Source: a virus. From it: a stretch of DNA of 64,000 nt. The notes beneath the pieces were generated by a model, which was not told the origin of the DNA, did no database searches, and saw only the letters and a program-made list of their open reading frames with translations. The stretch is taken from IMG/VR virus record IMGVR_UViG_3300038463_000227, positions 1 through 64,000 of that record; one strand, 5' to 3'. Numbering within the stretch: position 1 is the stretch's first letter; every line of letters starts with the position of its first letter. The position numbers were made by a program, and so were the translations under genes. Shown here in pieces: positions 3,715-41,579 of the stretch.

Positions 3715-3760
3715 GTCATTTCCGGATATATTATTAAGAGAATACTCAATATTTATACTT

Positions 3761-4057
3761 TTAACGTCTTCTCTTTGATTTTCTATGTTCCGAATCGTTA
3801 GATGAACTATAGAAATCTATTGCCTTTTTACTAACCCAGGCCACAAAAGCTTGGATATCGGGATGTTCTAATAGTCGTTCTATGGTGAAATAGTACTTGG
3901 CTAGTTCCCTTTCGGATAGTGTAGCATGGATCTTCCGATGACAAATTTTGTGTAATGGAATAGTTTCCTTACCTTTAAAGGTCTTAGGAAGTAGATGATG
4001 TTGATCAACATTAACTGTTCCCAGTTCCCGCTGACATAATTGACATTTCTCAGTCAT
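3761..4057 (-). CDS. HNH endonuclease-like protein
   Basis: 98 residues. CQLCQRELG provides a Cys pair, QHHLLPKTFKGKE matches the first His region of HNH nucleases, and LHKICHRKIHATL supplies the second His cluster. This is the HNH/His-Me fold, a DNA-nicking domain. The ATG overlaps the TGA of the upstream gene, so translation is coupled. The tail is Ser/Lys/Arg-rich. Confidence 0.7.
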   Translation of the reverse strand: MTEKCQLCQRELGTVNVDQHHLLPKTFKGKETIPLHKICHRKIHATLSERELAKYYFTIERLLEHPDIQAFVAWVSKKAIDFYSSSNDSEHRKSKRRR

Positions 4058-4422
4058 TTTTTATAGTGTTGTGTTCTTATTTCAATAATGGTATCATTGA
4101 TGGCCTGGATATAATCCCGGACTTGTTCTTCACTATCAAAGACAAAAGTTGAAGACATAGCCAACCTACCAGTAAAAGCTATTGAGCAAATTGCTTTTAC
4201 ACGAGACCAAATACGTTGGAATATATTACCATGCCATTCAGTCTGATAGGCACAGTATTCAATGTTGGTATCAAACGAGATGATGATATTTGGATTATCA
4301 TTCTCAATAGATACAGAAATGTCATGCATATGATCTGAATCACCACATGCACAGTTTGCTCTTAATACGGCCCAATCATGATGGAGGCCATACAGCTTAC
4401 AAATTTTGTTCGGTATTCTCAT
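4054..4422 (-). CDS. Unknown protein
   Basis: 122 residues. A CACGDSDH cluster lies near residue 28 and could hold a metal ion. No family recognised. It starts inside the end of the upstream gene and its TGA overlaps the next ATG, so it belongs to the tightly coupled block 3761-4962. Confidence 0.65.
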   Translation of the reverse strand: MRIPNKICKLYGLHHDWAVLRANCACGDSDHMHDISVSIENDNPNIIISFDTNIEYCAYQTEWHGNIFQRIWSRVKAICSIAFTGRLAMSSTFVFDSEEQVRDYIQAINDTIIEIRTQHYKK

Positions 4423-4678
4423 CTGGTTTTCTCATTATATCAATAACTGTTGCCCTTAAGCTATTTTCACATATTTGGTGATCATCAATTAAATATTGAC
4501 GTTCACTGTAATACTCAGCTCCCTCATTGTCAGTTGAATCCATCAGTAAAGCTTTCCAAAAGCCATATTCAACTAGAATGGCATTTTGCATAACACGTTG
4601 ATATAGTTCATCAATATTAAGTGTTGCCCACATTAATATGTCTATATCAACCTGTTGAATCTTTGTGTTTTGATCCAT
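4397..4678 (-). CDS. Unknown protein
   Basis: 93 residues, mostly helical and acidic; start ATG after CAGGAATA. Overlaps both neighbours by a few bases. No domain recognised. Confidence 0.65.
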   Translation of the reverse strand: MDQNTKIQQVDIDILMWATLNIDELYQRVMQNAILVEYGFWKALLMDSTDNEGAEYYSERQYLIDDHQICENSLRATVIDIMRKPDENTEQNL

Positions 4679-5743: not shown

Positions 5744-6310
5744 TTAATTGTTAAGAAGTTTTTTACCGGCTTGAATAAGACGGGATCGTTTAATTTTATA
5801 GCTTTCAGAATCTATTCCACCAAAAGCTATTGCATTTGCATTAATCTCCGCCCAAGCAGTAAAATAAAGAATAGGTGCAAATGGTGATTTACATAAATGT
5901 AAAAGGTCATCACCCTTTAAAGTATGAAAATCCATATCCATAGAAATAAGTTTCGTAATAAAACATTCATCTGGAAATATCTTTGAAAATTGTGTTGCTG
6001 ATTCAGCAGCATGATTTGGGTAATGTCTACGGCCATTTTCATCGATGCAAAGACAAAGATGTTTACCACAATCATGATACACATGGTACTTTTTTAATAA
6101 CTCTATTGGTGGCAAGGTATGTTTATACCTCTCATACAATTTGCAGAGTTCGGGATGCTTTATAGTACCTGCATCGAGTTCCTGGATTAATTTAATATAC
6201 TCATCATGAACTGCTTGTCCATGTTGAAGCATGTTTAAAGTAGGTGTTTGTTGACATTGTTCCATCTGTTGATGGAGATGTTCAAATGTTGTTGAATATA
6301 TCTATGTCAT
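5744..6310 (-). CDS. HD-domain hydrolase with in-frame amber at codon 3
   Basis: The frame opens at ATG 6310-6308, directly after AAAGGAAATTAAC, and reads ATG ACA TAG ATA TAT TCA before continuing uninterrupted to TAA at 5744. The full product would be 188 residues with the amber position at residue 3. HD-superfamily signatures follow: a His at LQHGQAVHD, the HD pair in YHDCGKH, and His in YPNHAAESA. HD proteins hydrolyse phosphate esters or nucleotides; the substrate here is unknown. The next in-frame ATG (6265) lacks a ribosome binding site. Expression therefore seems to need TAG suppression, for which tRNA 9461-9538 is available. Confidence 0.7.
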
Positions 6311-6311
6311 G

Positions 6312-6902
6312 TTAATTTCCTTTAATAAAAGTTTCATTATAATTTACCAACCATTCATATGCAGTTTTTGCTTCTTCTTTCCAGCGTGGGGCATATGCTT
6401 CCCAGCCTTCCCAATCTGCTTTAGGATTATAATTATTCAATAATTCCAAAGCTTCATCCATTGTTCTTTCTTTCCAGGTATCACAATCTTTATATACAAA
6501 AGCACCTCTAATTTTACGTGCCATATGTTTACCAAGACCTGGAGTTGTATCAATACCAAGCAGGCTTTCCACATGACATTTAGTACAGGAGCAAGGGAAA
6601 CATGTACAGTCACCAGCATGCTCACATCGGAGCTCAGGAATATAATAATCATTCACGAGCATATTAACACGCTTGTCTATTCCACTGATACCATTCTCGT
6701 CTTCATTTAGAAAATATTCCAGGTCCAAGTCTTTCCTGGCAGTTTCCAGGTTAAAATATTTGCCATCTCTTAAATGGAAATATGCAGATGACAAAGATTC
6801 TTCAAGTTCTTCCACCTTTACTTTATACCAGAGGATTTCCCTTTCATGATCAGTCAGTTCTACTATTATATTCAGCGGGTTGGGTGTATAAGTAAATTTC
6901 AT
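6312..6902 (-). CDS. Cysteine-cluster protein of unknown function
   Basis: 196 residues starting MKFTYTPNPL. This ATG is chosen because GGAG precedes it and it forms an ATGA overlap with the PTH2-like gene upstream. A dense cysteine cluster (CEHAGDCTCFPCSCTKCH, residues about 95-113) should bind zinc or an iron-sulphur centre. The C-terminal half is Trp-rich (DWEGWEAY). Similar Cys-cluster proteins of unknown role occur in large phages. Confidence 0.7.
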   Translation of the reverse strand: MKFTYTPNPLNIIVELTDHEREILWYKVKVEELEESLSSAYFHLRDGKYFNLETARKDLDLEYFLNEDENGISGIDKRVNMLVNDYYIPELRCEHAGDCTCFPCSCTKCHVESLLGIDTTPGLGKHMARKIRGAFVYKDCDTWKERTMDEALELLNNYNPKADWEGWEAYAPRWKEEAKTAYEWLVNYNETFIKGN

Positions 6903-7225
6903 TTGACTCTCCATAATTGAAGGTGTGACAATAGATGCCTCTGATCTTCAGTAAGAAGACAGGCAATGGCAGTTAATCCCCAATCTTGATATGGCTCATG
7001 AAATTCAGATGTGTTAATACCGATTGAATTTAAAGTAGCACGTTGCTGCTCAAGTGATTGTTGACTATTAATTGTTACATGGATATAGGAAGGATGCCCA
7101 TCAGGAGGACGGCCATTTTCATAAGCATATTCTACGGCAGCATGACCGGCTTGAATAGCTTGTTGTGTGAGCGGAATGTCGCGGTGAGATATTGCATAAA
7201 GGTATGATTTAGAAATCTATTGCAT
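6899..7225 (-). CDS. PTH2-like peptidyl-tRNA hydrolase with in-frame amber at codon 3
   Basis: ATG at 7225-7223 follows ATGGAGTTTAAA and reads ATG CAA TAG ATT TCT AAA TCA; the frame then stays open for 105 more codons to TGA at 6899-6901, which overlaps the next ATG. The product matches the PTH2 family: IQAGHAAVEYAYE is the conserved Q-x-x-HAA helix and FHEP with LTAIACLL the second signature. PTH2 enzymes release peptides from peptidyl-tRNA. The intact downstream frame and good ribosome binding site argue against decay. No other plausible start exists after the TAG, so translation appears to depend on amber decoding. Confidence 0.75.
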
Positions 7226-7304
7226 TTTAAACTCCATTAGGTTAAGTTAAATTTGATCTATTTCTGGAAAGGTATAGATCAGACCTTGTACTTATTTATA
7301 GAAA

Positions 7305-7621: not shown

Positions 7622-9172
7622 TTACTTTCCGATTTTGAATCCATCTACAGTATGGACTAATTCATTTGCTTGTTCATTTAGAGACTGTGCAGCAGCTGCC
7701 ATCTCTTCAACTAATGCAGCATTTTGTTGAGTAACATTATCCATATCATTAGCAGCTTGACCAATCTGAGAAATACTCAAAGTTTGTTCTTTGCTAGCTG
7801 TATCAATTTCATTCATGATATTGGTAACTTTATTAGCTACATCAACAATTTCATTCATTCGCTTACCAGCAGCATCAGCTTGGATAGTTCCTTGCTTGAC
7901 TTGATCAACACTAGTAAGAATTAACTGTTTAATCTCTTTTGCAGCGGTGGCAGAACGTTGTGCCAACTGTCTAACTTCACTTGCTACGACCGCAAATCCA
8001 CGACCTTGTTCACCAGCACGAGCCGCTTCAACAGCAGCATTCAATGCAAGAATATTAGTTTGGAATGCTATGCTATCAATAACAGTAATAATCTCTGTAA
8101 TCTTTTTGGATGATTCATTAATTTGTGTCATGGTAACCACAACATCACTAACAACATCACCACCTTTTAATGCCTCATTTGCCATTTGTTGTGCTAACTT
8201 ATTAGCAGCTGATGCAGCTTGAGCATTATCATTAACTGTAGAACCCATTTCTTGAATAGAAGCAACTGTTTCTTCAAGAGATGCAGCTTGACTTTCAGTA
8301 CGACCAGACAAATCCATATTACCTTGGGCAATTTGGTTGGATGCAGTCGCCACTTCATCAGCTCGAGATTTAACATCTTTCACTAATGAAATCAAACTTT
8401 GTTGCATGGTCTTAATAGAAGTTAATAACTTACCAACTTCATCATTACCACCTTCACTAACTTTTTGTGATAAATCACCATTAGCAATATAATCAGCAGC
8501 AGAAACAGCTTCTAGTACTGGTTTAGTTATTGCTTTTGTAATTACATATGTAAGGAAAGCTGATAAAAGTAATGATACAGCTATAGCACATGCAATAATT
8601 AATTTTGTTGTAACAAAAGCAGCTACAGTATTATTGCCTTGTTCACCTGCATATTTTTCATTAAAAACAAATTCTTCTTTTAATGAGTCTTGTATTTTGG
8701 AATATACTTTTCTATTCTCACCAAATAAAATAGTGGCACCAGCTTTAGTAGTAAATTCAGGTGAACCAACAAAGGCTAAAAGTTTATCATCTTCAGCAAA
8801 ATAAAGAGATGCATTTTCTTTTAGTTTATCAAAAATTATTTTTTCTTCTGCATTAGCAACAAAGGGTTCATATTTTTTAATATCATCACTTGTAACTGTT
8901 TTTAATTTTCCAATACGATCAATTAATGAAAGTCGTTCTTCATCAGAAACTTCCATCATTACTTGGCTTTCTAATCGACGGAGTGATCCTACATTTTCTT
9001 TAATACCATCCAAAATAATAATACTTGGGATAACATTGGTAACAAGCTCAGTACTTGCTGCATTCAGTTTTTGTAACTGGAATAACATCACCACACCCAT
9101 AGTGATAGTTAACAAAGTTATAACACTAAACCCTACCATGAGTTTATATGCGAGTCTGAGATTTTTGAACAT
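7622..9172 (-). CDS. Methyl-accepting chemotaxis protein
   Basis: 516 residues and apparently complete. Transmembrane helix 1 lies at residues 10-30 ([18 protein letters not shown]). A four-helix periplasmic sensor domain follows, then helix 2 at about 190-212 ([16 protein letters not shown]), a HAMP domain, methylation-helix segments ([13 protein letters not shown]) and the highly conserved hairpin tip [20 protein letters not shown] that contacts CheA and CheW. There is no C-terminal CheR-docking pentapeptide. In bacteria such proteins control swimming through CheA. A full-length chemoreceptor in a phage is very unusual; it could tune host motility. Gene acquired from a bacterium (inference). 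Confidence 0.95.
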
Positions 9173-9460: not shown

Positions 9461-9538
9461 TGGTGCGTCCGGTGGGAGTCGAACCCACGACCGATAGGAT
9501 TTAGAATCCCCCGCTCTAACCAACTGAGCTACAGACGC
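9461..9538 (-). tRNA. tRNA with CTA anticodon (putative amber suppressor)
   Basis: Acceptor GCGTCTG pairs with CGGACGC, discriminator A, CCA encoded. D arm GCTC/GAGC and T arm GTGGG TTCGACT CCCAC are perfect. The anticodon stem GGGGA/TCCTA (27-43 mismatched) closes a loop TTCTAAA, which puts CTA at positions 34-36 with T at 33. The variable loop is 6 nt, one more than usual. CTA reads the amber codon UAG. The amino acid it carries cannot be told from sequence alone. Confidence 0.7.
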
Positions 9539-21233: not shown

Positions 21234-21324
21234 TGGCGGAGGACCAGGGAATCGAACCCTGCAGGCGGCTTACGCCACCTTACAGCTTAGCAGGCTGCTG
21301 TCTTTGCCACATGACTCGCCCTCC
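21234..21324 (-). tRNA. tRNA-Ser(GCT), copy 1
   Basis: Acceptor GGAGGGC/GTCCTCC, anticodon arm GCAGC CTGCTAA GCTGT, long variable arm GGTGGCGTAAGCCGCC, T arm CAGGG TTCGATT CCCTG, discriminator G and CCA. Confidence 0.9.
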
Positions 21325-21562
21325 ATATTCTGATAGGCATTCCACCTAAACGGAATATACAATACGCTTTAAACGCTTTTAAATATATTCTTAGATATTT
21401 CCTTAACCGCAACGCCGGCTCAGATTCATTTCAAGGATACCAGCCAGAGTACCTTTCGGTAACATCCTTCGTATTTATCTACCTCTATTGGGTGATCAGT
21501 CCCACGCTATTCTTTAAAATAAAGTCTTAGGTAACTAGGAAGTCCAACGCCCCTTTATTTTA
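21325..21562 (-). other. Gene-free stretch with hairpins
   Basis: No reading frame with a ribosome binding site. Hairpins visible: ATTCC/GGAAT at 21340, GTACC/GGTAAC near 21450 inside AAGGAT/ATCCTT arms. Probably transcribed as part of the RNA island; function unknown. Confidence 0.4.
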
Positions 21563-21838
21563 TTACACTTTTGGTTGAGCAGCTACTACTTCTGGTTGTG
21601 CTTCAACCACAGCAACTACTGGTGCAAGTTCAGCTTCTACTACTTTAGCAGCAGCTTCTACTTCTGCAATAACAGGAGTTGCCATCGGTACTTTTGCTTC
21701 CAATTTCTTTTTGAAGAAATTCCATAACATTATCCAGAATGGTGTAAACATTGCACCAAGAACAATACCCATGTAAAAATGGATATCAAACAAACCAGAT
21801 AATAACTGGTTAAAAATTGTTGATACGAGTGATGACAT
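21563..21838 (-). CDS. Membrane protein with Ala/Val/Glu/Pro-rich tail
   Basis: 91 residues. One or two hydrophobic segments (residues 8-20 and 22-40, FYMGIVLGAMFTPFWIMLW), a basic KKKLEAK junction, then a long Ala-Val-Glu-Pro tail. Topology like a small holin-type protein, but charge pattern alone does not prove it. Confidence 0.65.
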   Translation of the reverse strand: MSSLVSTIFNQLLSGLFDIHFYMGIVLGAMFTPFWIMLWNFFKKKLEAKVPMATPVIAEVEAAAKVVEAELAPVVAVVEAQPEVVAAQPKV

Positions 21839-22051
21839 AATAAGATCCTTAAAGAGTTAATTACCTATTATTTATCACTTTTACTTTAATATAAACTTTT
21901 TATTTTGTGGACGGATTCCCGATTCTCCACCGTCAATTGGCTGCTGAATGTCCACAATATCATTCGTTAGGGATTAAACTGATACCAGCAACAGAACTGC
22001 TAACTACATCCAATCATTTTTATTGATCGTTCTAGATCACAAAATAACCGT

Positions 22052-22144
22052 TTAACGCTTGTAAATGTCTTTAATTTCAGATACTAGCATTGTTATAACT
22101 TGTGCACCGAGTAAAATCATCGGTACTATTAATAATTGTTCCAT
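22052..22144 (-). CDS. 30-residue membrane peptide
   Basis: MEQLLIVPMILLGAQVITML followed by VSEIKDIYKR. ATG follows TAGGAAATAAA. One transmembrane helix with a short charged tail. One of several tiny membrane peptides in this genome. Confidence 0.55.
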   Translation of the reverse strand: MEQLLIVPMILLGAQVITMLVSEIKDIYKR

Positions 22145-22237
22145 TTTATTTCCTATTTTTTGTGTGTGTAAATTCTCGACAGGTGTTGTTTATCAAGTCT
22201 TTATCACTTGTTGGCAGAATCCTGCAACTGCACATTT

Positions 22238-22328
22238 TGGCGGAAGCGGTGGGATTCGAACCCACGTGCCCTTTTCAGAACGCACTCCTTAGCAGGGAGG
22301 CCAAATAAACCAGCTCTAGCACGCTTCC
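22238..22328 (-). tRNA. tRNA-Ser(GCT), copy 2
   Basis: Acceptor GGAAGCG/CGCTTCC, loop CTGCTAA (GCT), long variable arm, T arm GTGGG TTCGAAT CCCAC, G73, CCA. Sequence differs strongly from copy 1. Its 5' end overlaps the 3' end of the protein gene at 22316. Confidence 0.9.
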
Positions 22329-22834
22329 ATAACTTGATTCCAAAGTTCTTCTTCTCTTCCGAAGTACTCTGGATATAATTTTCGTAACTCGCTCTCAGGG
22401 AGTTTTGCAGGATTTCCACCAAGGACTTCTCGTCCATCAGTATCATTCCAAACCTCAATAATGAGGTCTCTTAGATCATTTACCGTTCCACCTTTTGGCT
22501 GGATTATGATGTCGCATCGACCTAAAATCCAATCAAAGTGCTTGCGGGAAAAATCTACCTCTTCCATTAGATCATGATCACGGGCTTGACCCATGGTAAC
22601 CATGATGATATGAGTTAGGAGCTGAGGATTTTCTTCTTTGAGTTTTTTCGCGTTAATGTACGCGCGAACTGTTTTGCCTAGCTTCTTAGCCGCGGCGAGA
22701 GCGCCTGCGACCTGTGCTTCGACTTGATCAGTTTGTAAGCAGTAGACTTGAAGTAAACCTGCTCTGACGTGTTCTCTATCTCCGACACCAAGTCGGCGAG
22801 ATACTTCCCAACCGTTTCTTTCAAGAGTAATCAT
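22316..22834 (-). CDS. Unknown 172-residue protein ending inside a tRNA
   Basis: Start ATG after AAGGGAAAC. Visibly richer in G+C than its neighbours (Ala-, Arg- and Gly-rich codons), suggesting later acquisition. Hydrophobic strand THIIMVTMGQARDHDLM and IIIQPKGG hint at a Rossmann-like fold, but no family is recognised. The last codons MEAC-TAG lie within the acceptor and first bases of tRNA-Ser copy 2, so gene and tRNA overlap by 13 nt. TAG is the stop. Confidence 0.7.
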   Translation of the reverse strand: MITLERNGWEVSRRLGVGDREHVRAGLLQVYCLQTDQVEAQVAGALAAAKKLGKTVRAYINAKKLKEENPQLLTHIIMVTMGQARDHDLMEEVDFSRKHFDWILGRCDIIIQPKGGTVNDLRDLIIEVWNDTDGREVLGGNPAKLPESELRKLYPEYFGREEELWNQVMEAC

Positions 22835-22847
22835 GTTTCCCTTTAAC

Positions 22848-22939
22848 TGGCGGAAGTGGTAGGATTTGAACCCACGGGCCGATTTCTCGACCTTCAGTTT
22901 TCAAGACTGACGCAATAAACCAGGCTCTGCCACACTTCC
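22848..22939 (-). tRNA. tRNA-Ser(TGA)
   Basis: Acceptor GGAAGTG/CACTTCC, anticodon arm TCAGT CTTGAAA ACTGA, long variable arm, T loop TTCAAAT, G73, CCA. Confidence 0.9.
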
Positions 22940-22949
22940 AAATTTGAAT

Positions 22950-23095
22950 TTTAAAATCCTCTAACAGTAACGACAGTACCTTAATGATACCGGAATTTTT
23001 CCTGTTCCTACGGCAATAGGCTGTGGGTTAGATGGTGTCCCTTGCCGGGGTAATACCATTATGTTATCCACTCTTTCTATTTAAAGGATTTTAAA
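22950..23095 (-). ncRNA. Structured RNA closed by 11-bp AU stem (element 2)
   Basis: TTTAAAATCCT at 22950 and AGGATTTTAAA at 23085 are perfect inverted repeats, extendable outward. No ORF, no T arm. Starts directly after tRNA-Ser(TGA). Confidence 0.55.
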
Positions 23096-23107
23096 GTTAA
23101 AACTTCC

Positions 23108-23239
23108 AAAAATTAATACACAACAAAAATGATATCGTAGATTTGTCCTCTGGGCCACCTGACGTACGGGAATCGAACCCGGTAGAGTTTTATTCAAAGT
23201 AAAGGATAAACAATATTCGACGGTAATGTATTAATTTTT
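23108..23239 (-). ncRNA. Structured RNA with T-like arm, 13-bp AU stem (element 3)
   Basis: AAAAATTAATACA (23108) and TGTATTAATTTTT (23227) are a perfect 13-bp inverted repeat. Inside is a T-arm-like hairpin CCGGG TTCGATT CCCGT but no matching 5' tRNA half. Confidence 0.6.
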
Positions 23240-23299
23240 AAAAGCTTTATTTAAAGCCATTAACTGCTTTTTACTTCATAATGGCTTTATTTAAAACCA

Positions 23300-23452
23300 T
23301 TATAACGAATTGTAAACTGCAGCTTTATATGCTGCTAATGCAATTTCACGAGTTATAAATCTTGATGGATTTTTAACTTCTACTGGAAATTTTTTATTAA
23401 ACCAAGCATCAAATTGAGCTTGTTGAATCAATGTTAAATCAAAATCATCCAT
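23300..23452 (-). CDS. Small unknown protein
   Basis: 50 residues starting MDDFDLTLIQQAQFDAWF, with TTGGAG upstream. The helical pattern (FDAWFNKKFP...AYKAAVYNS) resembles short phage helical proteins of unknown role. Confidence 0.65.
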   Translation of the reverse strand: MDDFDLTLIQQAQFDAWFNKKFPVEVKNPSRFITREIALAAYKAAVYNSL

Positions 23453-23524
23453 TATAAAACTCCAATATAATTTTCTATAATTCATTATACTACAGTTAAC
23501 AATTTTTGTACATCTATTTATAAA

Positions 23525-23641
23525 ATGATCAGGCCTTCCAAACCAGTCACCACCTGGTCGATATTGTGTGGTTGGATATCTCCACTAACTCAGTATATCT
23601 ACTGATGCACAATTCGATGACCGCCAACCTAGTCACTTCGG
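23525..23641 (-). ncRNA. Possible structured RNA
   Basis: GGTTGG/CCAACC arms (about 23570 and 23626) enclose a TCAGTA/TACTGA hairpin; a TCAC-TTCG-GTGA hairpin follows. No tRNA arms and no ORF. Evidence is base pairing only. Confidence 0.35.
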
Positions 23642-23644
23642 TGA

Positions 23645-23839
23645 TTATTTTATAGTTGGTTTACCAAAAATATATTCGGTGGCATTATGTCCATTAATCG
23701 GTCGAACATAAGAACCATCCTCATTAACTTTAGTAATCGATGGGAAAATCTCTTTCAAAAGTTTCTCATCGCAGACATTTCGCAATGACCTAATGTTCCA
23801 CCAGCGGAATAACATCTTATAACAAAACTTGGTACCCAT
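23645..23839 (-). CDS. Small unknown protein overlapping tRNA-Leu 3' end
   Basis: Up to 64 residues; the first ATG lies in the acceptor end of tRNA-Leu(CAA) and lacks a clear ribosome binding site, so the second ATG (MLFRWWNIRSL, at 23815) may be the real start. Central part VNEDGSYVRPINGHN looks folded. No family recognised. Confidence 0.5.
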   Translation of the reverse strand: MGTKFCYKMLFRWWNIRSLRNVCDEKLLKEIFPSITKVNEDGSYVRPINGHNATEYIFGKPTIK

Positions 23840-23910
23840 GGTCAGAGTCGAACTGACAGATATCCACTCCCTTTTGAGGAGAGCCGCTTTACCAAATTGC
23901 GTACATGGGC
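23830..23910 (-). tRNA. tRNA-Leu(CAA)
   Basis: Acceptor GCCCATG/CATGGGT, anticodon arm CTCTC CTCAAAA GGGAG, 9-nt variable region (short for class II), T arm GTCAG TTCGACT CTGAC, A73, CCA. Confidence 0.85.
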
Positions 23911-24041
23911 ATTGTTAGGGTGCGGGTGAAAATACAACTCATCATTATAAAAATCATCCCGCAGTTATTTATTTTAATACTTCCTCCCACAACTATAGTG
24001 TGCAGTGATACTCATATGACAAATAAACAAACTTTAAAAAT

Positions 24042-24170
24042 TGGTGTAGACGTTAGGATTCGAACCTAAGACAAGCTGTTTGAGATAACCATTATATAGC
24101 GGTCACCTTACGGTAACAAAAATCATAAAACGATGTTTTGACGGCTGTTCTACCACTGAACTACATCTAC
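24042..24170 (-). tRNA. tRNA with about 54-nt insertion in the anticodon loop (Glu-CTC if spliced)
   Basis: Acceptor GTAGATG/CGTCTAC, D arm GTTC/GAAC, T arm TTAGG TTCGAAT CCTAA, A73 and CCA are normal. The anticodon region holds 54 extra nt. If they were removed after position 32, stem GCCGT/ACAGC and loop CTCTCAA (anticodon CTC, Glu) would form. Too small for a self-splicing group I intron. It contains GGTGACCGCTATATAATGG, related to a segment of element 1. Confidence 0.6.
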
Positions 24171-24229
24171 ATTGCAAGACTTTATTGCTAAAGTCTGCGC
24201 TTAACTCTCGAAAGAATTAAGGGGGTTTC

Positions 24230-24415
24230 TTATTTCCAATCACTATCCCTCAGGCCTAGCTTTCGAAAAAGTATTCTTTTGGCAACTTCTAAAGGTAACT
24301 CCGAATCAATTAAGAGTTTTAAAGCAGAATCAAGATCACCCCACAACTTAATAGCAGCTAGTGCTTGTTGTACAGCTTGGTCCTGATTCATATTTAATCG
24401 TCTAGTATCATCCAT
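24230..24415 (-). CDS. Small unknown protein
   Basis: 61 residues, possibly starting at the internal MNQDQAV. Helical, Ala/Leu-rich; ends FRKLGLRDSDWK. Short helical design suggests protein binding. No family recognised. Confidence 0.55.
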   Translation of the reverse strand: MDDTRRLNMNQDQAVQQALAAIKLWGDLDSALKLLIDSELPLEVAKRILFRKLGLRDSDWK

Positions 24416-24456
24416 CCTATTACCTACTACTTAAAGTAGTATTTATTGATAAATGT

Positions 24457-24603
24457 ATTTATTTGTCAGAGTCGAGATTGAGAGACCTCTCCCTAGTGTC
24501 CAGGTTCTTTACCCTGTTGGACCCCGCCTCTATAGTGGCCACACTCAATTATGGTCACCTCATATGCAGATAACTAGATGCCTTACGGCACGAGCAAATA
24601 AAT
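24457..24603 (-). ncRNA. Structured RNA at a promoter start site (element 4)
   Basis: ATTTATTTG (24457) and CAAATAAAT (24595) close it. Inside: a GTCC...GGAC hairpin and GTGCCGTAAGGCAT. It begins about 15 nt after the -10 box of the promoter at 24618-24661, so it is the first thing transcribed. Confidence 0.6.
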
Positions 24604-24617
24604 TCTTCAATACAGGT

Positions 24618-24661
24618 ATTATAAGTCAGTTTCAACCTAATGTATACCTTTTAATTGTAAC
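24618..24661 (-). promoter_or_regulatory. Phage promoter, copy 4 (inside RNA island)
   Basis: GTTACAATTAAAAGGTATAC and TATAAT at offset 38. It faces the structured RNA 24457-24603 and the tRNAs further left. Confidence 0.75.
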
Positions 24662-24827
24662 AAACGGAAATTAATATGAGCAAACCTGTTATTAACTTTT
24701 TGAATATATTCAAGGAACGTGGCATTGTGCTCAATCCTATATTCTCCTAAAACTTGGTGCTATATATTTATTCAAAACCATAAATACTATTTTAAAATTC
24801 TTTATTTAAAGTTCGAATATATGATAA

Positions 24828-24913
24828 TGGTGCTGGTTGTAGGATTTGAACCCACGAGGAATTTCTTCGCTTGATTACAAGTCAAGTGCCGTCGACCGCT
24901 TGGCTAAACCAGC
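24828..24913 (-). tRNA. Class II tRNA with Thr anticodon TGT
   Basis: Acceptor GCTGGTT/AACCAGC, anticodon arm CTTGA CTTGTAA TCAAG (TGT), T arm GTGGG TTCAAAT CCTAC, A73, CCA. It also has a 14-nt variable arm and a Leu/Ser/Tyr-style D arm (GCC...GGC). Normal tRNA-Thr has a short variable loop, so the charging identity is uncertain. Confidence 0.75.
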
Positions 24914-25180
24914 CTATTTATTACCGAAAATGTTGTCTAACCACCAATGTGGAAATAATCCATCTTCATACAATTCTTTTTCTCTGAGGAGACCTAACTT
25001 GATATCCTCTTTCCACATCTTTTCGTGGACATTCAAATATGTTTTACCAACACTGAAACCATTCTTACTTGATACTGATGTACCATAGCTTTCAGAGTTA
25101 TACAACTCAATTAACATCTCATCACTGTAATCCAAAACATGATCCCAACTTCGGGAAAATATTCGATATACTTCAGCCAT
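24914..25180 (-). CDS. Unknown protein, 5' end probably frameshifted
   Basis: 88 residues from MAEVYRIFSRSWDH, but coding-like sequence in the same frame extends 27 codons upstream (SAKRPVKGSNLGTPKRSIHK). That extension lacks a start; an ATG with a perfect AGGAGG site at 25266 is in the other frame and one -1 shift would join them. Stop is TAG, directly abutting the 5' end of the class II tRNA. Helical, basic N-terminus. No family recognised. Confidence 0.5.
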   Translation of the reverse strand: MAEVYRIFSRSWDHVLDYSDEMLIELYNSESYGTSVSSKNGFSVGKTYLNVHEKMWKEDIKLGLLREKELYEDGLFPHWWLDNIFGNK

Positions 25181-25275
25181 TCTTTTAAACTTCTGACTTA
25201 CTTTATGGATACTGCGTTTTGGTGTTCCTAAATTACTACCCTTAACTGGGCGTTTAGCTGAGTCATGCTAGCCTC

Positions 25276-25557
25276 CTATATATGTGTTATGTAAAATTTA
25301 CCACCGGGTTCATATTTACTACTATCTTCATAATACTCGATTTTTACTCTATGATGTTGGTCAATATCATGTATATCACCAAAATCAACTGACTGAAAAA
25401 ACATAACATCACTTAATACTTGATCATCAAGCCTTACAGTAAATGGTTCTTCCTGTTTAGGATTGGAAGTATAATGTTGCTTTTCAATAATGCCTTGAAT
25501 TATTATTAATGCTTCTTCAGAAGGATTAATTAAAGTTATAACTCGTTTAGATATCAT
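25276..25557 (-). CDS. Unknown protein ending in TAG
   Basis: 93 residues, beta-rich (VRLDDQVLSDVMFFQSVDF). Ends YITHI-TAG. The downstream ribosome binding site AGGAGG overlaps the stop. Read-through would add 12 residues up to a second TAG. No family recognised. Confidence 0.65.
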   Translation of the reverse strand: MISKRVITLINPSEEALIIIQGIIEKQHYTSNPKQEEPFTVRLDDQVLSDVMFFQSVDFGDIHDIDQHHRVKIEYYEDSSKYEPGGKFYITHI

Positions 25558-25586
25558 TTTATAGCCTTATATTTATAGAATTTAAT

Positions 25587-25672
25587 TGGTCGGCGAGGAG
25601 GGACTTGAACCCTCAATCCCTCACGGGCGGCAGATTTTAAGTCTGCAGTGTATACCATTCCACCACTCGCCG
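25587..25672 (-). tRNA. tRNA-Leu(TAA), copy 1
   Basis: Acceptor CGGCGAG/CTCGCCG, anticodon arm GCAGA CTTAAAA TCTGC, long variable arm, T arm GAGGG TTCAAGT CCCTC, A73, CCA. Confidence 0.92.
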
Positions 25673-25801
25673 ATGGATCTAAGATTCTCTGATACTGCAT
25701 TAAAGTAAAGTAAACCTTAGCAATCTTTAATGGGACAACTCTGATGGGTGTTCAGTCATCTTTAGTATTTTTAATCCAACCTATTTATAGGTTCTAAATC
25801 T

Positions 25802-25890
25802 TGGTCCGGCGCGTGAGATTCGAACTCACAGCCCTTTCGGGGTCAACACGTTTTAAGCGTGCTCGGTCTACCAATTCCCTGCACCGCCGG
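25802..25890 (-). tRNA. tRNA-Leu(TAA), copy 2
   Basis: Acceptor CCGGCGG/GCGCCGG, anticodon arm GCACG CTTAAAA CGTGT, long variable arm, T arm GTGAG TTCGAAT CTCAC, A73, CCA. An ORF across it is an artefact. Confidence 0.9.
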
Positions 25891-26099
25891 ATAATTCTTG
25901 TTATGACATTTATGCGGTTACTGTAACTAAGTCGTTTATCAAATGTTGCCGCACCTTCTTGATAACACATCGGCTCTGTTAAAGCTGTCATATTTAAATA
26001 TGCCTCATGGAGGGAACATAAATGTCTGAACCTACCCTAGCTTATAAACTGTCTGAAATTGTTGCTATCAGATTCAATAAACAAGATGACTGCATAATT

Positions 26100-26203
26100 T
26101 GGTGAAGTTTCAGGGAATCGAACCACTGGGATATCTAGCGCTGCAGCACTAATAATATATCCGTCTCACTGACGGACCGGTCTCCATAACCGTCTAAAAC
26201 TTC
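26100..26203 (-). tRNA. tRNA-like gene with an extra arm
   Basis: Perfect acceptor GAAGTTT/AAACTTC with A73 and CCA. Internal hairpins in order: CGGT/ACCG, CCGTC/GACGG (5-nt loop), TAGTG/CGCTA (loop CTGCAG), then a weak T arm with loop TTCGATT. No standard anticodon loop with T33. Aberrant or degenerate. Confidence 0.45.
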
Positions 26204-26209
26204 ATATTC

Positions 26210-26300
26210 TGGCGGAGAAAGGAGGAATTGAACCCCTGGGATCTTTCGACCCCAACTTGTTTTCCAAACAAGCGTCAGAACCATCTGATCACCATTCTCC
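26210..26300 (-). tRNA. tRNA-Ser(GGA)
   Basis: Acceptor GGAGAAT/TTTCTCC, anticodon arm CTTGT TTGGAAA ACAAG, long variable arm, T loop TTCAATT, G73, CCA. Confidence 0.88.
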
Positions 26301-26308
26301 AAATTTTT

Positions 26309-26468
26309 TTTGATGTGTATTAGATTTGAACCTAACTTGAACAACCTATAAACGTTCATGACCACTTATAGTTTATGCCGTGTTTCATCAGCCCGACATT
26401 GCATCTGACAGTTCCCGCCCAGATTTCGAGGCCCGAGGTGTGCATCAAACTGCACTATTCACATCAAA
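26309..26468 (-). ncRNA. Structured RNA with T-like arm (element 5)
   Basis: TTTGATGTG (26309) and CACATCAAA (26460) pair perfectly. A T-arm-like TTAGG TTCAAA TCTAA lies next to the left arm. No matching tRNA halves. Confidence 0.45.
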
Positions 26469-26475
26469 TTCTAGC

Positions 26476-26548
26476 AAGCGCCACTGGGAATCGAACCCGA
26501 CAGCCGTGCACAGCATCCTAGTGTTACTCTACGCCATAGGACGACGCT
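26476..26548 (-). tRNA. Atypical tRNA-like gene
   Basis: Acceptor AGCGTCG/TGGCGCT pairs and the spacing up to the T loop TTCGATT is normal for a tRNA, but the D and anticodon arms are poorly paired and no CCA is encoded. Anticodon not assignable. Confidence 0.4.
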
Positions 26549-26557
26549 CTTTTTATT

Positions 26558-26643
26558 TGGTACGCGCGGGGAGACTTGAACTCCCAATCCCTCACGGGCG
26601 CTGGCTTCTAAGACCAGAGCGTATGCCATTCCGCCACGCGCGC
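26558..26643 (-). tRNA. tRNA-Leu(TAG)
   Basis: Acceptor GCGCGCG/CGCGCGT, anticodon arm CTGGT CTTAGAA GCCAG, long variable arm, T arm GGGAG TTCAAGT CTCCC, A73, CCA. Confidence 0.9.
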
Positions 26644-26745
26644 ATAATTCCTTCGATACAGGTCACTGAGTTCCTTTGGGAAGGTCCCCTCAGATCGTCA
26701 TGATGCTTCCAACCACTCTCATGAACCCTTTGGGTAGGGTATCGA

Positions 26746-26922
26746 TTATTCTTTAATTACTGTTGGTTCTTCTAAAGGTTCAATAATATAATCTTTAGCA
26801 GTACCTTTAGGTATATGTTTATCACAATTGTGTCCTAAATAGTTCTTATTCATATTTTTTAAGACTGCAGTTGCTTCTGATGTACACTTCGGAAAACAAG
26901 GTGAGGTGCAAAGTATTGACAT
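26746..26922 (-). CDS. Small Cys-rich protein
   Basis: 58 residues, start MSILCTSPCFPKCTSE after AAAGGAAATAT. Four Cys (three within the first 13 residues plus one near 33) suggest metal binding. Gene sits alone between tRNAs. Confidence 0.65.
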   Translation of the reverse strand: MSILCTSPCFPKCTSEATAVLKNMNKNYLGHNCDKHIPKGTAKDYIIEPLEEPTVIKE

Positions 26923-27048
26923 ATATTTCCTTTTAGATTCTTCCTAAGGTTTCCCCCATCGAGAGTCGTGATGCTACTTAGGACTCGATTTATTCAATAA
27001 AAGATGGTGCTAGCCTCTATGACTAATCTTATCAACCATATAAATTTT

Positions 27049-27143
27049 TGGTCCTTCTCCACGGTTACGATCCGTGCCGTTGTAGCCAATCTAGCCACTC
27101 TCCCAAGTTTATAAAACTTAGCCGCTCGCCAAAGCTGAGAAGG
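27049..27143 (-). tRNA. Class II tRNA with TAT anticodon
   Basis: Acceptor CCTTCTC/GAGAAGG, A73, CCA. Anticodon arm TAAGT TTTATAA ACTTG (TAT would read AUA, Ile). Long variable arm with GTGGC/GCTAC hairpin, T arm CACGG ATCGTAA CCGTG with A54. A long variable arm is not expected for tRNA-Ile. Confidence 0.65.
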
Positions 27144-27153
27144 ATAACGATAG

Positions 27154-27175
27154 CTAGTGGATTTCTCCACTAGCA
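27154..27175 (-). terminator. Hairpin after the DUF932 gene
   Basis: CTAGTGGA/TCCACTAG inverted repeat 12 nt downstream of the stop of 27185-28153. No long T run. Confidence 0.5.
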
Positions 27176-27184
27176 GTTTTGATA

Positions 27185-28153
27185 TTAAGCAGTTGCCAAT
27201 AAACGTTGCAGTGTCAGTGATTTCAAATCATCACCTTTACCAAACCATGCATTTGCCATACGATGGCTGTTTGTTTTTGCTGTTGCATGATGATCAATGT
27301 ATTCTGTAACACTGTTCAGCAGACCCCAAGCAGTACCTTCAGCAGATTGCATTTCGCTGCCAATTCCGCCACCTTGAAACAAGTCCATGATTTTCATGTA
27401 CTGTTTTGATTTTGAAACATCATCGGCATAAATCATTTTTGAATCACGCAGCAAGTTTTCAACAAATTCTTCAGCATGACGTGTTGACATTGAAGTTGCA
27501 GCCAACTGACGAGCAGCTCCAAGAAAGTCACCAAAGTTACCACGCGCAATTCCCAATTGGTTTTTAACTTTGTTTGCATCAAATGCTGTACGATGACTAA
27601 TAACAACTTCACGTGCTTTACCTTGCAAAGCCATACCCAAAGTGTTATTACAAACAACACGCACTGTTGTGAAACGTGCTGTAGTTGCTAATGTACCATC
27701 ACAGCTTGATGACAATAACAAGTAACCATCAACTTTGTCATCACCAACGATACAAGCAGATTCACCGATTGATGCAAGTGCCCAAAAACGGCGGCCATCA
27801 AATAGAGTTCCAGCAGTATCCAAGGTGAAACCATTTGCATCAGTCAAGTCATGGAAAAAATCCAAAACTTCACCAGGTTGAACAATTTTATATTTAGAAG
27901 ACACAATTGACAGTGCTTCTTTTGTATCTGAACGATATAAAACGTTACTATCTGGAATTGTACCAACTTCACCATCAACACCGAAAGTTACAGGACTTGT
28001 TTTGATATTCCAATCCATACCAGCAGCTTCTTTCCATGTTGCCATGTCAGCACCGGCTTCAAGAGATTGACCTAAACCATGCCAAGGCTTTTCAGTACCA
28101 ACATAAGCCATTTCAGCAAGACCATTTTTACGGATTGTGATTGCGTGTGCCAT
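27185..28153 (-). CDS. DUF932 / TIGR03299 phage-plasmid protein
   Basis: 322 residues. The opening with TEKPWHGLG, the central FWALASIGE and VRVVCNNTL, and the overall length match the DUF932 family found in phages, plasmids and mobile elements. Biochemical role unknown; often associated with replication or gene-transfer elements. Has its own promoter (28199-28251), a terminator hairpin and clear AAGGAAAATATA ribosome binding site, so it is expressed separately from the tRNAs around it. Confidence 0.88.
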   Translation of the reverse strand: MAHAITIRKNGLAEMAYVGTEKPWHGLGQSLEAGADMATWKEAAGMDWNIKTSPVTFGVDGEVGTIPDSNVLYRSDTKEALSIVSSKYKIVQPGEVLDFFHDLTDANGFTLDTAGTLFDGRRFWALASIGESACIVGDDKVDGYLLLSSSCDGTLATTARFTTVRVVCNNTLGMALQGKAREVVISHRTAFDANKVKNQLGIARGNFGDFLGAARQLAATSMSTRHAEEFVENLLRDSKMIYADDVSKSKQYMKIMDLFQGGGIGSEMQSAEGTAWGLLNSVTEYIDHHATAKTNSHRMANAWFGKGDDLKSLTLQRLLATA

Positions 28154-28198
28154 TATATTTTCCTTTAAAATCAGATTCAGGTTTGAATCAATGAAGTA

Positions 28199-28251
28199 AT
28201 TATAGGCTTATATCTGGAAGTTGTACACTTTTATTTAAAAATAATTGTAAC
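28199..28251 (-). promoter_or_regulatory. Phage promoter, copy 5 (9 nt longer)
   Basis: GTTACAATTA, then GTGTAC and TATAAT displaced together by 9 nt relative to the other copies, so the -35/-10 spacing is unchanged while the upstream box is moved. Confidence 0.65.
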
Positions 28252-28258
28252 GAGATTT

Positions 28259-28331
28259 TGGTGTCGAGGGTAGGATTTAAACCTACATGGTTCAGCTAAG
28301 GCCTATGCTTTTTGCATTAAGATACCTCGAC
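28259..28331 (-). tRNA. Atypical tRNA-like gene
   Basis: Perfect acceptor GTCGAGG/CCTCGAC, T arm GTAGG TTTAAAT CCTAC, A73, CCA. Between them an ATGC-AAAAA-GCAT hairpin and an 11-nt loop replace normal D and anticodon arms; 73 nt with CCA. Anticodon not assignable. Confidence 0.45.
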
Positions 28332-28413
28332 ATTGTTTAGACGTGAAATGAGTATTTAAACTACATCTTTTTTAATACACGAGATATTAAAAAAGAAGAT
28401 TCCACGATTTTTC

Positions 28414-28620
28414 TTAAGTATCCAAATCAATAAGCTTTGGACCTTCAGCAATCATATACCATGAAGGAACTACTTTTGCAGTATTCTTGGAATTAAATTC
28501 CTTAATATGTGCTTTGGCATCTTCAAGAGCTGTATTACCATCAAAATCTCGATGACCATCAGGGCGTGAACCCCAACCGGCTTCATATTCTATATAATAC
28601 ACTCGATAGACTGGTTTCAT
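28414..28620 (-). CDS. Small unknown protein
   Basis: 68 residues, MKPVYRVYYIEYEAGWGSRP opening, beta then helix. Resembles short 'phage host-interaction' type proteins only in size. No family recognised. Confidence 0.65.
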   Translation of the reverse strand: MKPVYRVYYIEYEAGWGSRPDGHRDFDGNTALEDAKAHIKEFNSKNTAKVVPSWYMIAEGPKLIDLDT

Positions 28621-28636
28621 GATGTGCTTTCAAAAT

Positions 28637-28712
28637 TGGAGCGGAATGGGGAACTTGAATCCCCGACATCTTGCTTGGCAAGCAAGTGCTCTACCAACTG
28701 AGCTAATCCCGC
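28637..28712 (-). tRNA. tRNA-Gly(GCC)
   Basis: Acceptor GCGGGAT/ATTCCGC, D arm GCTC/GAGC, anticodon arm CTTGC TTGCCAA GCAAG, T arm GGGGA TTCAAGT TCCCC, T73, CCA. Confidence 0.93.
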
Positions 28713-28721
28713 ATTATAATA

Positions 28722-28784
28722 TAAAAGTATTAACATGAGAATTGGACGGCTGCTCTGTTTTGATCTGAGAGGTCAATACTTTTA
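28722..28784 (-). ncRNA. Short AU-closed structured spacer (element 6)
   Basis: TAAAAGTATT (28722) and AATACTTTTA (28775), perfect 10-bp inverted repeat between tRNA-Gly and tRNA-Gln. Confidence 0.5.
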
Positions 28785-28788
28785 AATC

Positions 28789-28863
28789 TGGTGCAGATAG
28801 ATGGAATTGAACCACCGACACCCCTCATCAAAGAAGGCGCTCTAGGCACTGAGCTATATCCGC
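28789..28863 (-). tRNA. tRNA-Gln(TTG)
   Basis: Acceptor GCGGATA/TATCTGC, D arm GCTC/GAGC, T arm GGTGG TTCAATT CCATC, A73, CCA. Anticodon stem CCTTC/GAGGG leaves a 6-nt loop TTTGAT, one base short; TTG is the likely anticodon. Confidence 0.65.
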
Positions 28864-28871
28864 ATTGTTAG

Positions 28872-28942
28872 TGGTGGAGAAGGAGAGACTCGAACTCACC
28901 GGGAATTCTTTGCAAAAGACTTCTGTACCCTGTACCATCCCC
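28872..28942 (-). tRNA. tRNA-Ala(TGC), short D arm
   Basis: Acceptor GGGGATG/CTTCTCC includes the G3:U70 pair that marks alanine tRNA. Loop TTTGCAA (TGC), T loop TTCGAGT, A73, CCA. Only 71 nt; the D arm is shortened. Confidence 0.6.
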
Positions 28943-29018
28943 ATTATATTGCTAGGTTAATTTTGTTGTGTAAAGAGTAGGTTTACCTCATTCTCTTTGT
29001 GCAATTTTAGTAGCCACA

Positions 29019-29489
29019 TTAACCTAATTTTGGTGCCCCAGGGTAGGATTTAAACCTACCGCCACGCTCCCTCAACGGAAGCTGCTCTAACACTGAGCTA
29101 CTGGGACATTGTTCTTTATATATATATTTTAAACCTGATATAACTTCGGCAATATCAATATCTTGTTTCCAATAAGAAAGTAAAATTTCTTTATTTAATT
29201 TTACCCAATCTATTATATCCAACATATCATCTTTTTTTATTTTTTTAGTATCACCAATAACTCTTGGCTCTGCATCTATTGTAATAGTAAAACTACTTCC
29301 CGACCATGTATTTCCATATTCAGAATTTACTTTAATTCTTGGTCCATGATTAACACCCCGATTATCAGAGATATAAATTATAACTGGTAATTTGGTAGTA
29401 TTTTTACCAAGATTAACCATCTCATTTATTACTCGATCATCAAATACAGAATATTCTCTTTCAAGAAGAAACTGCTGCATTATCTTCAT
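29019..29489 (-). CDS. Small phage protein whose frame runs through a tRNA
   Basis: 156 residues from MKIMQQFLLEREYSVF (ATG after AATGGATTAAT). Residues 1-125 are similar to the gene at 32796 (same MKIxxxLL start, ARIKV/PRIKV strand, IxDWVxLN helix), so the two are paralogues. The last about 30 residues are the translation of the tRNA at 29031-29107, because no stop occurs before it. A stop may have been lost when the tRNA arrived. Function unknown. Confidence 0.55.
   Translation of the reverse strand: MKIMQQFLLEREYSVFDDRVINEMVNLGKNTTKLPVIIYISDNRGVNHGPRIKVNSEYGNTWSGSSFTITIDAEPRVIGDTKKIKKDDMLDIIDWVKLNKEILLSYWKQDIDIAEVISGLKYIYKEQCPSSSVLEQLPLRERGGRFKSYPGAPKLG
29031..29107 (-). tRNA. tRNA with atypical anticodon loop (Gln-TTG?)
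   Basis: Acceptor GTCCCAG/CTGGGGC, D arm GCTC/GAGC, 6-bp T stem, A73, CCA. Anticodon stem GCTTC/GGAGC is perfect but the loop CGTTGAG has G instead of T at 33; TTG sits at 34-36. Confidence 0.6.
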
Positions 29490-29490
29490 A

Positions 29491-30033
29491 TTAATCCATT
29501 CCATTCATCATAAAGGCCATTTCTAAATTACCTTTAATTCCATCTAAGTCTTCTTTTGATAATTTTTTCTTAGAAGCAATTACCGCTGAACCATGCTTGG
29601 TTGTTATATCACTATCAAACTTCCAAGGAGCTAATAAACTCGATGATATTATCTTCTTGTAAGTCAAAAATCTTTTATGTTCTGTTGTAATAGCAACAAA
29701 TATTAATGCTTTGATATCATACTCAGTATTAAGTTTTGGTATTTTATCTTTTAATTCATTGGCGATCGCACCAAAAATCTTCATTGCACTTTTAGGTTTA
29801 TCACCTATTAAATCTTGTTCTGGTTTTCCATCAACCATTCTAATAAAGGCGATATTTAACCAGCTAAATGGATCTTGTTCACCATCAAAATTAAAGGGTT
29901 GAATCAATATTTTATATTCATTACCATCTAATTCACCGGTACCAGCAATTGCACCATAAAATGTTCCCCATTTGACTGAATCAAACTTGGAATCTAATGA
30001 TTCTGTTAACTGTAGTAAATTATCCATCTTCAT
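29491..30033 (-). CDS. Unknown 180-residue protein
   Basis: Starts MKMDNLLQLTESLDSKF after a TATAATG junction. Beta-rich core, Lys-rich C-terminus (ASKKKLSKEDL). Its TAA overlaps the ribosome binding region of the paralogue downstream. No family recognised. Confidence 0.65.
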   Translation of the reverse strand: MKMDNLLQLTESLDSKFDSVKWGTFYGAIAGTGELDGNEYKILIQPFNFDGEQDPFSWLNIAFIRMVDGKPEQDLIGDKPKSAMKIFGAIANELKDKIPKLNTEYDIKALIFVAITTEHKRFLTYKKIISSSLLAPWKFDSDITTKHGSAVIASKKKLSKEDLDGIKGNLEMAFMMNGMD

Positions 30034-30079
30034 ACATTATACCTTATTATTTGAATTAAGTACATGTATTTATAAAACT

Positions 30080-30156
30080 TGGTGGTCCCACCGAGGAGAC
30101 GATCCCGGAATGCTCGATTATGAGTCGAGGGTTATAACCATTTTAACTACAGGACC
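30080..30156 (-). tRNA. tRNA-Met or Ile2 (CAT), copy 1
   Basis: Acceptor GGTCCTG/TGGGACC, D arm GTTA/TAAC, anticodon arm CTCGA CTCATAA TCGAG (CAT), T arm CCGGG ATCGTCT CTCGG with unusual T loop, A73, CCA. Confidence 0.8.
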
Positions 30157-30176
30157 AAAACCGAAATACCTAAAGA

Positions 30177-30261
30177 AGCGGGACTTGGATTTGAACCAAG
30201 ACTTGCATTATATGTTTCAGGGTTATGAGCCCCGCGTGTTAACCGGATTACACTATCCCGC
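30177..30261 (-). tRNA. tRNA (CAT), copy 2, CCA not encoded
   Basis: Acceptor GCGGGAT/GTCCCGC, anticodon arm CGGGG CTCATAA CCCTG, T arm CTTGG TTCAAAT CCAAG. The variable region is about 17 nt. No CCA; instead CCTAAAGA/TCTTTAGG flanks extend the acceptor helix by 8 bp. Confidence 0.7.
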
Positions 30262-30470
30262 ATCTTTAGGTACTTCTTTAAACTGGGCGGCCATGAATCC
30301 ATTAAGATAGGAGGTACCCATGGCCATATGCAAGCTTTTAACAGCGTCACTAGGGACTGTGCATTCAGTAACCCCTAATCACCCATAAAGTCCTACCAAG
30401 CCTTTACAGGAAGGTCATTATCTGGATAGCAAAACCTCTATTCTGGTTTTGGTATTTATCAGATCAATAC
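30262..30470 (-). other. Gene-free stretch in RNA island
   Basis: No credible ORF or complete tRNA. Several short palindromes are visible (for example near 30320 CCATGG/CCATATG). Nothing further can be supported. Confidence 0.3.
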
Positions 30471-30555
30471 TGGTGCGGATGATAGGACTTGAACCTACAC
30501 GCCTCTCGGCACGAGCTTCTTAGACTCGCATGGCTACCAATTACATCACATCCGC
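30471..30555 (-). tRNA. tRNA-Leu(AAG)
   Basis: Acceptor GCGGATG/CATCCGC, anticodon arm CGAGT CTAAGAA GCTCG, long variable arm, T arm GTAGG TTCAAGT CCTAT, A73, CCA. Confidence 0.85.
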
Positions 30556-30562
30556 ATAATTC

Positions 30563-30760
30563 TTATAAAACAATTCTTTCAAAAGTAATTCCAAAAGAAT
30601 TTCTTCTTTCTATTTCTAACTGTAACTTATTACCAGTATCTTCAGTTATATGATGAATAATAACCACATCATCACTTGTATTTCCAGGTATTAAATAATG
30701 TATTTGTTTCAATAATAATTGTTGCATCCGACTACATTGAATTCCAGGTTTATTTATCAT
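30563..30760 (-). CDS. Small unknown protein
   Basis: 65 residues; MQQLLLKQIHYLIPG may be the true start region. Overlaps the upstream gene stop. C-terminal beta strands. No family recognised. Confidence 0.55.
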   Translation of the reverse strand: MINKPGIQCSRMQQLLLKQIHYLIPGNTSDDVVIIHHITEDTGNKLQLEIERRNSFGITFERIVL

Positions 30761-31086: not shown

Positions 31087-31088
31087 AT

Positions 31089-41528: not shown

Positions 41529-41579
41529 AGTAAGCTCCTTACGTTTGTTAAAATATGCCTTGAGTCTATCTCGTGGCAG

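Follow-up and report, generated by a model that had tools for sequence, protein, structure and literature searches.

What does a phage in which UAG still ends genes do with a transfer RNA (tRNA) that reads UAG? The question is raised by a tRNA gene with a CUA anticodon at positions 9461..9538 (-) of the window, by which we mean the whole stretch of DNA analyzed here, the first 64,000 bases of the 71,919-base IMG/VR virus record IMGVR_UViG_3300038463_000227. Our answer, to which we give a probability of roughly 0.88, is that this would be a UAG-decoding suppressor tRNA that gates the translation of a few dedicated targets. The candidate targets are two genes, each interrupted by an in-frame UAG at codon 3, that code for a protein with the fold of peptidyl-tRNA hydrolase 2 (PTH2-like) and for an HD-domain protein. 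We favor this reading because the early stop is conserved, a suppressor tRNA is linked to it, UAG/CUA and UGA/UCA covary, the base after the stop (+4) is biased, and HD genes either carry their own stop or overlap an interrupted gene.

The tRNA with its CUA anticodon is confirmed as a real cloverleaf. ARAGORN calls exactly 9461-9538 (-) as a tRNA with anticodon CTA, and in a scan of the whole 64-kb window the Rfam model RF00005 matched 9464-9538 at 61.6 bits against a gathering score of 29 (E = 6.6e-11), among the better scores of the two dozen tRNA matches in the window. Its letters read GCGUCUG UA GCUC AGUUGGUUA GAGC G GGGGA UUCUAAA UCCUA UCGGUC GUGGG UUCGACU CCCAC CGGACGC A CCA, with full pairing in the acceptor, D and T stems, an anticodon loop UU-CUA-AA of 7 nt (U33, A37, A38) and an encoded CCA. 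The first-pass annotation, made from the letters alone, had described four arms, a CCA end and a UAG-reading anticodon, and both programs agree with it. It had also named another anticodon register as a threat to the call; the one checked, Arg-UCU, fits worse because it requires deleting position 26 and a G.A pair at 31-39. The tRNA-Pyl architecture has a 3-nt variable loop, a small D loop and a 6-bp anticodon stem. The gene found here has a 6-nt variable loop, which is one of its weak points, a 9-nt D loop and a 5-position anticodon stem; a Pyl identity was rejected on these grounds, and the "Pyl" label given by ARAGORN reflects the anticodon only.

UAG is an ordinary terminator in this phage. 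About 123 genes were modelled in the window, nearly all on the minus strand, with ends distributed as TAA 93, TGA 19 and TAG 11 (the annotation had estimated about ten of the last), and the code is therefore not reassigned. Two of the 11 UAG-ended genes have a second stop immediately after the first, and in related loci UAG terminates 137 of 1221 ordinary long open reading frames (ORFs). In-frame extensions past the ordinary UAG ends of the window run for 0 to 16 codons and are non-coding, bar the one at 53126-53410, and conserved coding sequence contains UAG only in the PTH2-like and HD genes. A CUA tRNA is a hallmark of code-15 phages (PMC13037316), and a phage recoded genome-wide would simply use the early UAGs as sense codons. 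However, the pattern of code 15, in which many genes use UAG as sense and few or none end with it, is absent here, and the UAG ends of the window and of the related loci, the short or non-coding extensions and the restriction of internal UAG to two genes leave this explanation with practically no probability. The earlier suggestion of partial suppression without a full code change holds up, since UAG still terminates, its timing late in infection being conjectural; what it had overlooked is the dedicated targets. The exceptional extension at 53126-53410 was considered as a readthrough gene, with 50 coding-like codons after the UAG, but it has its own ATG two codons on and was treated as a separate gene. 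The region 52973-53410 (-) can be described as a DUF7220 gene with a UAG end followed by an in-frame coding-like stretch that is probably a gene of its own.

The first target occupies a gap of the gene map (6915-7304) on the strand of the tRNA, where a Shine-Dalgarno (SD) sequence GGAG at 7232..7235 (-), 6 nt 5' of the start codon, is followed by ATG, CAA, TAG and then 105 coding-like codons. The gene extends over 6899..7225 (-), 2.3 kb downstream of the CUA tRNA, and was delimited from its sequence, from homologues with the same early stop and from an AlphaFold model. It reads M Q UAG ISKSYLYAISHRDIPL..., with the amber codon at 7217..7219 (-) and A as the next base, and its readthrough product would be MQ-UAG-ISKSYLYAISHRDIPLTQQAIQAGHAAVEY.... 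The UAG falls in a variable N-terminal tail. The model of this readthrough protein (predicted local distance difference test [pLDDT] of 92.4) has the PTH2 fold: its best PDB match, 3erj, is an archaeal PTH2 (Z 14.3 across 103 residues), human Bit1 follows with Z 13.8, and the next unrelated folds drop to Z 4.2. Several homologues exceed or come close to the Pfam cut-off for PTH2 (PF01981, cut-off 23), with 25.3 for the member in XacN1 and 28.0 for that in LR756511, and the window member has no Pfam match. Peptidyl-tRNA hydrolase activity is predicted from the fold. A search of bacterial and archaeal genome contigs with two alignments found no relatives of the family.

The second target, the HD-domain gene at 5744..6310 (-), also lies on the strand of the tRNA and starts in the same way, with an SD sequence AAGGA at 6318..6322 (-), ATG, ACA, TAG and then in-frame coding sequence (M T UAG IYSTTFEHLHQQMEQC...QHG...YHDCGKH...). 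Its amber codon is at 6302..6304 (-), again followed by A, and an ORF called with the standard code, 5744-6265, lacks the N terminus. In both window genes the frame is open past the UAG, with no alternative start ahead of the conserved residues. The protein matches phrog_14850 (E 6.9e-58), and its AlphaFold model (pLDDT 95.8) is closest in the PDB to the HD region of the tRNA-processing A-adding enzyme 3wfr (Z 14.0 over 157 residues), the next HD folds reaching Z 10.5. A profile match to the poly A polymerase 3wfo (E 4e-4) points the same way, and H30, H79, D80 and D125 are invariant across 32 HD sequences. We take it to be an HD fold nearest to tRNA nucleotidyltransferases or A-adding enzymes, which suggests an action on tRNA 3' ends. 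A tRNA nucleotidyltransferase, the class whose HD region this protein resembles, is encoded at 58833..60002 (-) (phrog_2244 E 4.2e-97; Pfam PolyA_pol).

Is the early stop a peculiarity of this phage? We collected PTH2-like relatives from phage records and IMG/VR, 104 loci that were reduced to 81 by merging at 90% nucleotide identity, and scored a stop as early only if an ATG stood shortly before it and no ATG, GTG or TTG intervened before the conserved body. By this strict rule the early stop is UAG in 55 loci, UGA in one and UAA in none, and it usually falls at codon 3 (27) or codon 4 (19); looser cases (GTG start, fused genes, possible start after the stop) add to these. The isolates among them infect Acinetobacter, Serratia, Erwinia, Xanthomonas, Cronobacter, Pectobacterium and Salmonella; the metagenomic members include phages of 595 and 735 kb. 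An in-frame stop that diverged homologues share, with conserved coding sequence beyond it, is a mark of programmed readthrough genes, and these loci show it. GenBank records leave the PTH2-like gene unannotated or begin it at an internal codon in BF, GAP32, CBB, XbC2, Kaldavass and ME3, and in the record of Serratia phage BF this gene has no annotation and the HD gene appears as two pieces. A third gene family, roughly 150 codons long, has UAG as its third codon with no other start close by; it was seen at 9960 in locus L076 and 9569 (+) in L083, both from phages that carry an interrupted PTH2-like gene.

A single in-frame UAG, being a common mutation, could also mean a gene broken by a nonsense mutation or a sequencing error, with the CUA tRNA as a bystander or a general suppressor that has no target; the papers on XacN1 and Summit indeed name none (PMC5852040, PMC9022506). 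The comparison already contradicts this, as the stop stands at the same place in dozens of independent assemblies and isolates with the body conserved, is never UAA, is UGA only alongside a UCA tRNA and exceeds the early-stop background of other ORFs, so that we consider it to have a negligible chance. That background, SD-ATG-stop-ORF arrangements in 2.5 Mb outside the PTH2-like genes, comprises 34 TAG, 13 TGA and 12 TAA, and the HD family accounts for much of the TAG excess.

The HD family follows a rule of its own. A homologue is present in 37 loci, with an early UAG in 24, UGA in 2, a UAG in a mid-gene loop in 3 (Serratia phage BF, Kaldavass and L064) and no stop in 8. All eight genes lacking a stop of their own overlap the 3' end of an interrupted PTH2-like gene by 4 to 20 nt, an arrangement in which translational coupling can apply, and each of the 20 located away from the PTH2-like gene is interrupted by a stop (p = 9e-5 for stop or overlap). 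In XacN1, RAS14 and L110 both domains are fused behind a single early UAG, which in the HD-PTH2 gene of XacN1 is codon 3, with one TAG inside the match; the fused gene of L111 carries one more UAG where the domains join. In a 634-kb phage with the HD gene alone in view, the UAG is at codon 4.

The linkage to a suppressor tRNA is close. A CUA tRNA lies in the same locus stretch in 48 of the 55 strict UAG loci and is accounted for in 52 overall, as Rfam places one 254 nt upstream of the PTH2-like gene in L015, it lies farther along the contig in L075 and L089, and near-identical relatives of L126 have it; the three left over (L034, L045 and L073) are contigs of 7.9 to 14.6 kb. In the UAG and UGA loci, 70 of 70 suppressor tRNAs are on the strand of the PTH2-like gene, and the median separation is 1.6 kb. 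Their bodies vary widely (median pairwise identity of 0.64; discriminator A, G or U) and the stop-reading anticodon is kept; bodies and discriminator bases so varied point to no particular amino acid.

The anticodon changes together with the stop codon. Locus L046 has UGA in both the PTH2-like and the HD gene, with two UCA tRNAs and no CUA; L047 has UGA in the PTH2-like gene, with one UCA tRNA and no CUA; and L091 has UGA in the HD gene and two UCA tRNAs on the contig. There are 52 UAG/CUA and 3 UGA/UCA pairs with no mismatch (Fisher p = 3.8e-5, although the loci share ancestry and Fisher values overstate their independence). In the protein tree the two PTH2-like UGA rows sit amid UAG rows and need two separate changes. 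Decoding of the early stops by the neighboring tRNA is, as a prediction, strongly supported by this comparison.

Could the stop instead be used as a stop? A short ORF of 2 to 4 codons with a good SD sequence resembles a minigene, and bacterial ribosomes often reinitiate after termination, so the early stop could be a regulatory mini-ORF or attenuator in which ATG-X-UAG truly ends, the main protein reinitiates after the UAG and the tRNA is irrelevant. Reinitiation needs no shared frame, yet when all frames are compared, the ATG with the best SD sequence shares the frame of the PTH2-like body in 60 of 64 loci. The strict members have no ATG, GTG or TTG from the stop to the conserved body, and the codon after the early UAG is not constant. 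A purine after UAG favors suppression. The base following the early UAG is A in 36 cases, G in 22, C in 1 and T in none (purine 58/59), compared with A 47, T 39, G 26 and C 25 after ordinary UAG ends in the same loci (purine 73/137; p = 1e-11 for the difference). The mini-ORF leaves unexplained both this preference and the CUA/UCA match, and we regard it as very improbable. For the target genes we infer that the UAG is actually read through.

Several observations weigh against a tRNA dedicated to these genes. The anticodon stem of the window tRNA has two weak pairs, G28-U42 and G27.A43. Five loci (L098, L103, L104, L106 and L108) combine a nearby CUA tRNA with a PTH2-like gene free of early stops, and Tenacibaculum phage pT24 (L177) has a tRNA-Sup (CUA) at 1051-1125 and, about 3 kb away, an uninterrupted HD homologue at 3749-4567. 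No convincing PTH2-like or HD homologue was found in Atu_ph07 (UCA tRNA), Astolliot (CUA tRNA) or PQ287642, and other suppressor tRNAs must therefore serve other ends. The families were gathered by similarity to interrupted members, which could bias the interrupted share; the UGA loci number only three, and in L047 a GTG follows the UGA. Phage tRNAs can counter anticodon nucleases, and the main role of this one might be elsewhere, as a decoy for such a nuclease or in broad readthrough of host and phage UAG, with the two genes merely exploiting it. The two or three CUA tRNAs of some loci, and pT24 and the few members that have the tRNA and no early stop in these genes, would fit such a role, but the same-strand linkage at short distance and the joint change of anticodon and stop codon do not, and we consider it unlikely.

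If the tRNA is dedicated, the switch would work as follows. With the phage tRNA absent or uncharged, release factor 1 would stop translation after two codons; once transcribed, CCA-ended and charged, the tRNA would compete with release factor 1 and yield the full-length PTH2-like and HD proteins, which would appear only then. Both products resemble enzymes of the tRNA 3' end and permuted genes for transfer-messenger RNA (tmRNA) are often close, so the lock may couple tRNA upkeep to supply. Such a two-piece tmRNA gene lies at 45471-45916 (-) of the window (RF04321, 96.3 bits), and others are present in L009, L010, L015, L018, L040, L046 and L087; in several related phages such genes sit no more than a few kb from the tRNA/PTH2-like module. 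Very short start-stop ORFs favor peptidyl-tRNA drop-off, which produces the substrate of peptidyl-tRNA hydrolase; this would suit a feedback loop. We offer only tentatively, as a speculation, that the purpose is to make the output of two tRNA-3'-end enzymes depend on how much working phage tRNA is available, in the manner of a lock and key or a feedback switch that stays off until the phage tRNAs are made.

Among known systems, the standard-code jumbo phages XacN1, RsoM2USA, Eneladusvirus BF, CBB, GAP32 and Atu_ph07 likewise encode many tRNAs, with a CUA or UCA anticodon among them, and keep the standard code, and the loci of XacN1, BF, CBB and GAP32 have the same interrupted genes as the window phage. 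Targets were sought for the suppressor tRNAs of XacN1 (PMC5852040) and Summit (PMC9022506) and none was identified, and for RsoM2USA (PMC8504454) and Atu_ph07 (PMC6102473) only stop-codon counts were given. Our search of the open-access literature (subscription papers and preprints were outside it) found no target named for any of these four, whereas specific conserved targets are proposed here. Phages with reassigned stop codons (code 15, crAss-like, jumbo) also have a CUA tRNA that reads UAG as sense, but with UAG spread over many genes, whereas in the window phage it stands near the start of one or two genes and otherwise serves as a stop. Pyrrolysine (UAG/tRNA-Pyl) and selenocysteine (UGA/tRNA-Sec) are similar in that a dedicated tRNA decodes a stop in few genes; the phage tRNAs differ in their ordinary architecture and in bodies unrelated between phages, and the codon is in a variable N-terminal tail rather than the active site, and nothing suggests that a special amino acid is important. 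In the +1 frameshift of release factor 2 at an early UGA, output is likewise set by competition between termination and recoding; here the recoder would be a separate nearby tRNA gene and the genes under control code for PTH2-like and HD proteins. PTH2, the same fold as that of our first target, occurs in jumbo phages according to an overview that does not mention suppressor tRNAs (PMC7824862).

The window has other features of interest. Between the CUA tRNA and the PTH2-like gene, 7622-9172 (-) encodes a complete chemoreceptor-like protein (4HB_MCP, HAMP and MCP signalling domains; phrog_8572), unusual for a phage; no relatives of it or of the phosphatase adjoining the tRNA were found in our scans. 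Two dozen tRNA-like genes are clustered at 21234-35387 (-), several of them unusually long (24045-24170, 27049-27143) and possibly decayed or intron-bearing. An NAMPT-like protein followed by a nucleotidyltransferase-Nudix protein (40035-42752, -) forms a phage nicotinamide adenine dinucleotide salvage pair, and a Gad1-family anti-Gabija protein is encoded at 47875-48933 (-) (PF25705, E 6.6e-47).

Suppressor tRNAs of standard-code phages have been reported repeatedly, with no purpose known for them; conserved candidate targets can now be named, those of XacN1 included, and with specific targets in hand the question is open to a plasmid-reporter test. Annotation pipelines lose genes with such early stops, as in Serratia phage BF. 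On balance, the comparison somewhat favors a gene-specific switch of jumbo phages, in which an early stop locks a gene or two for tRNA maintenance that would be opened only by a phage suppressor tRNA, built on almost any body, whose anticodon coevolves with the lock. The enzymes would then appear only while the phage tRNAs are being produced, processed and charged, which would feed back on tRNA supply, and these phages would regulate genes through the supply of the sole tRNA able to read them.
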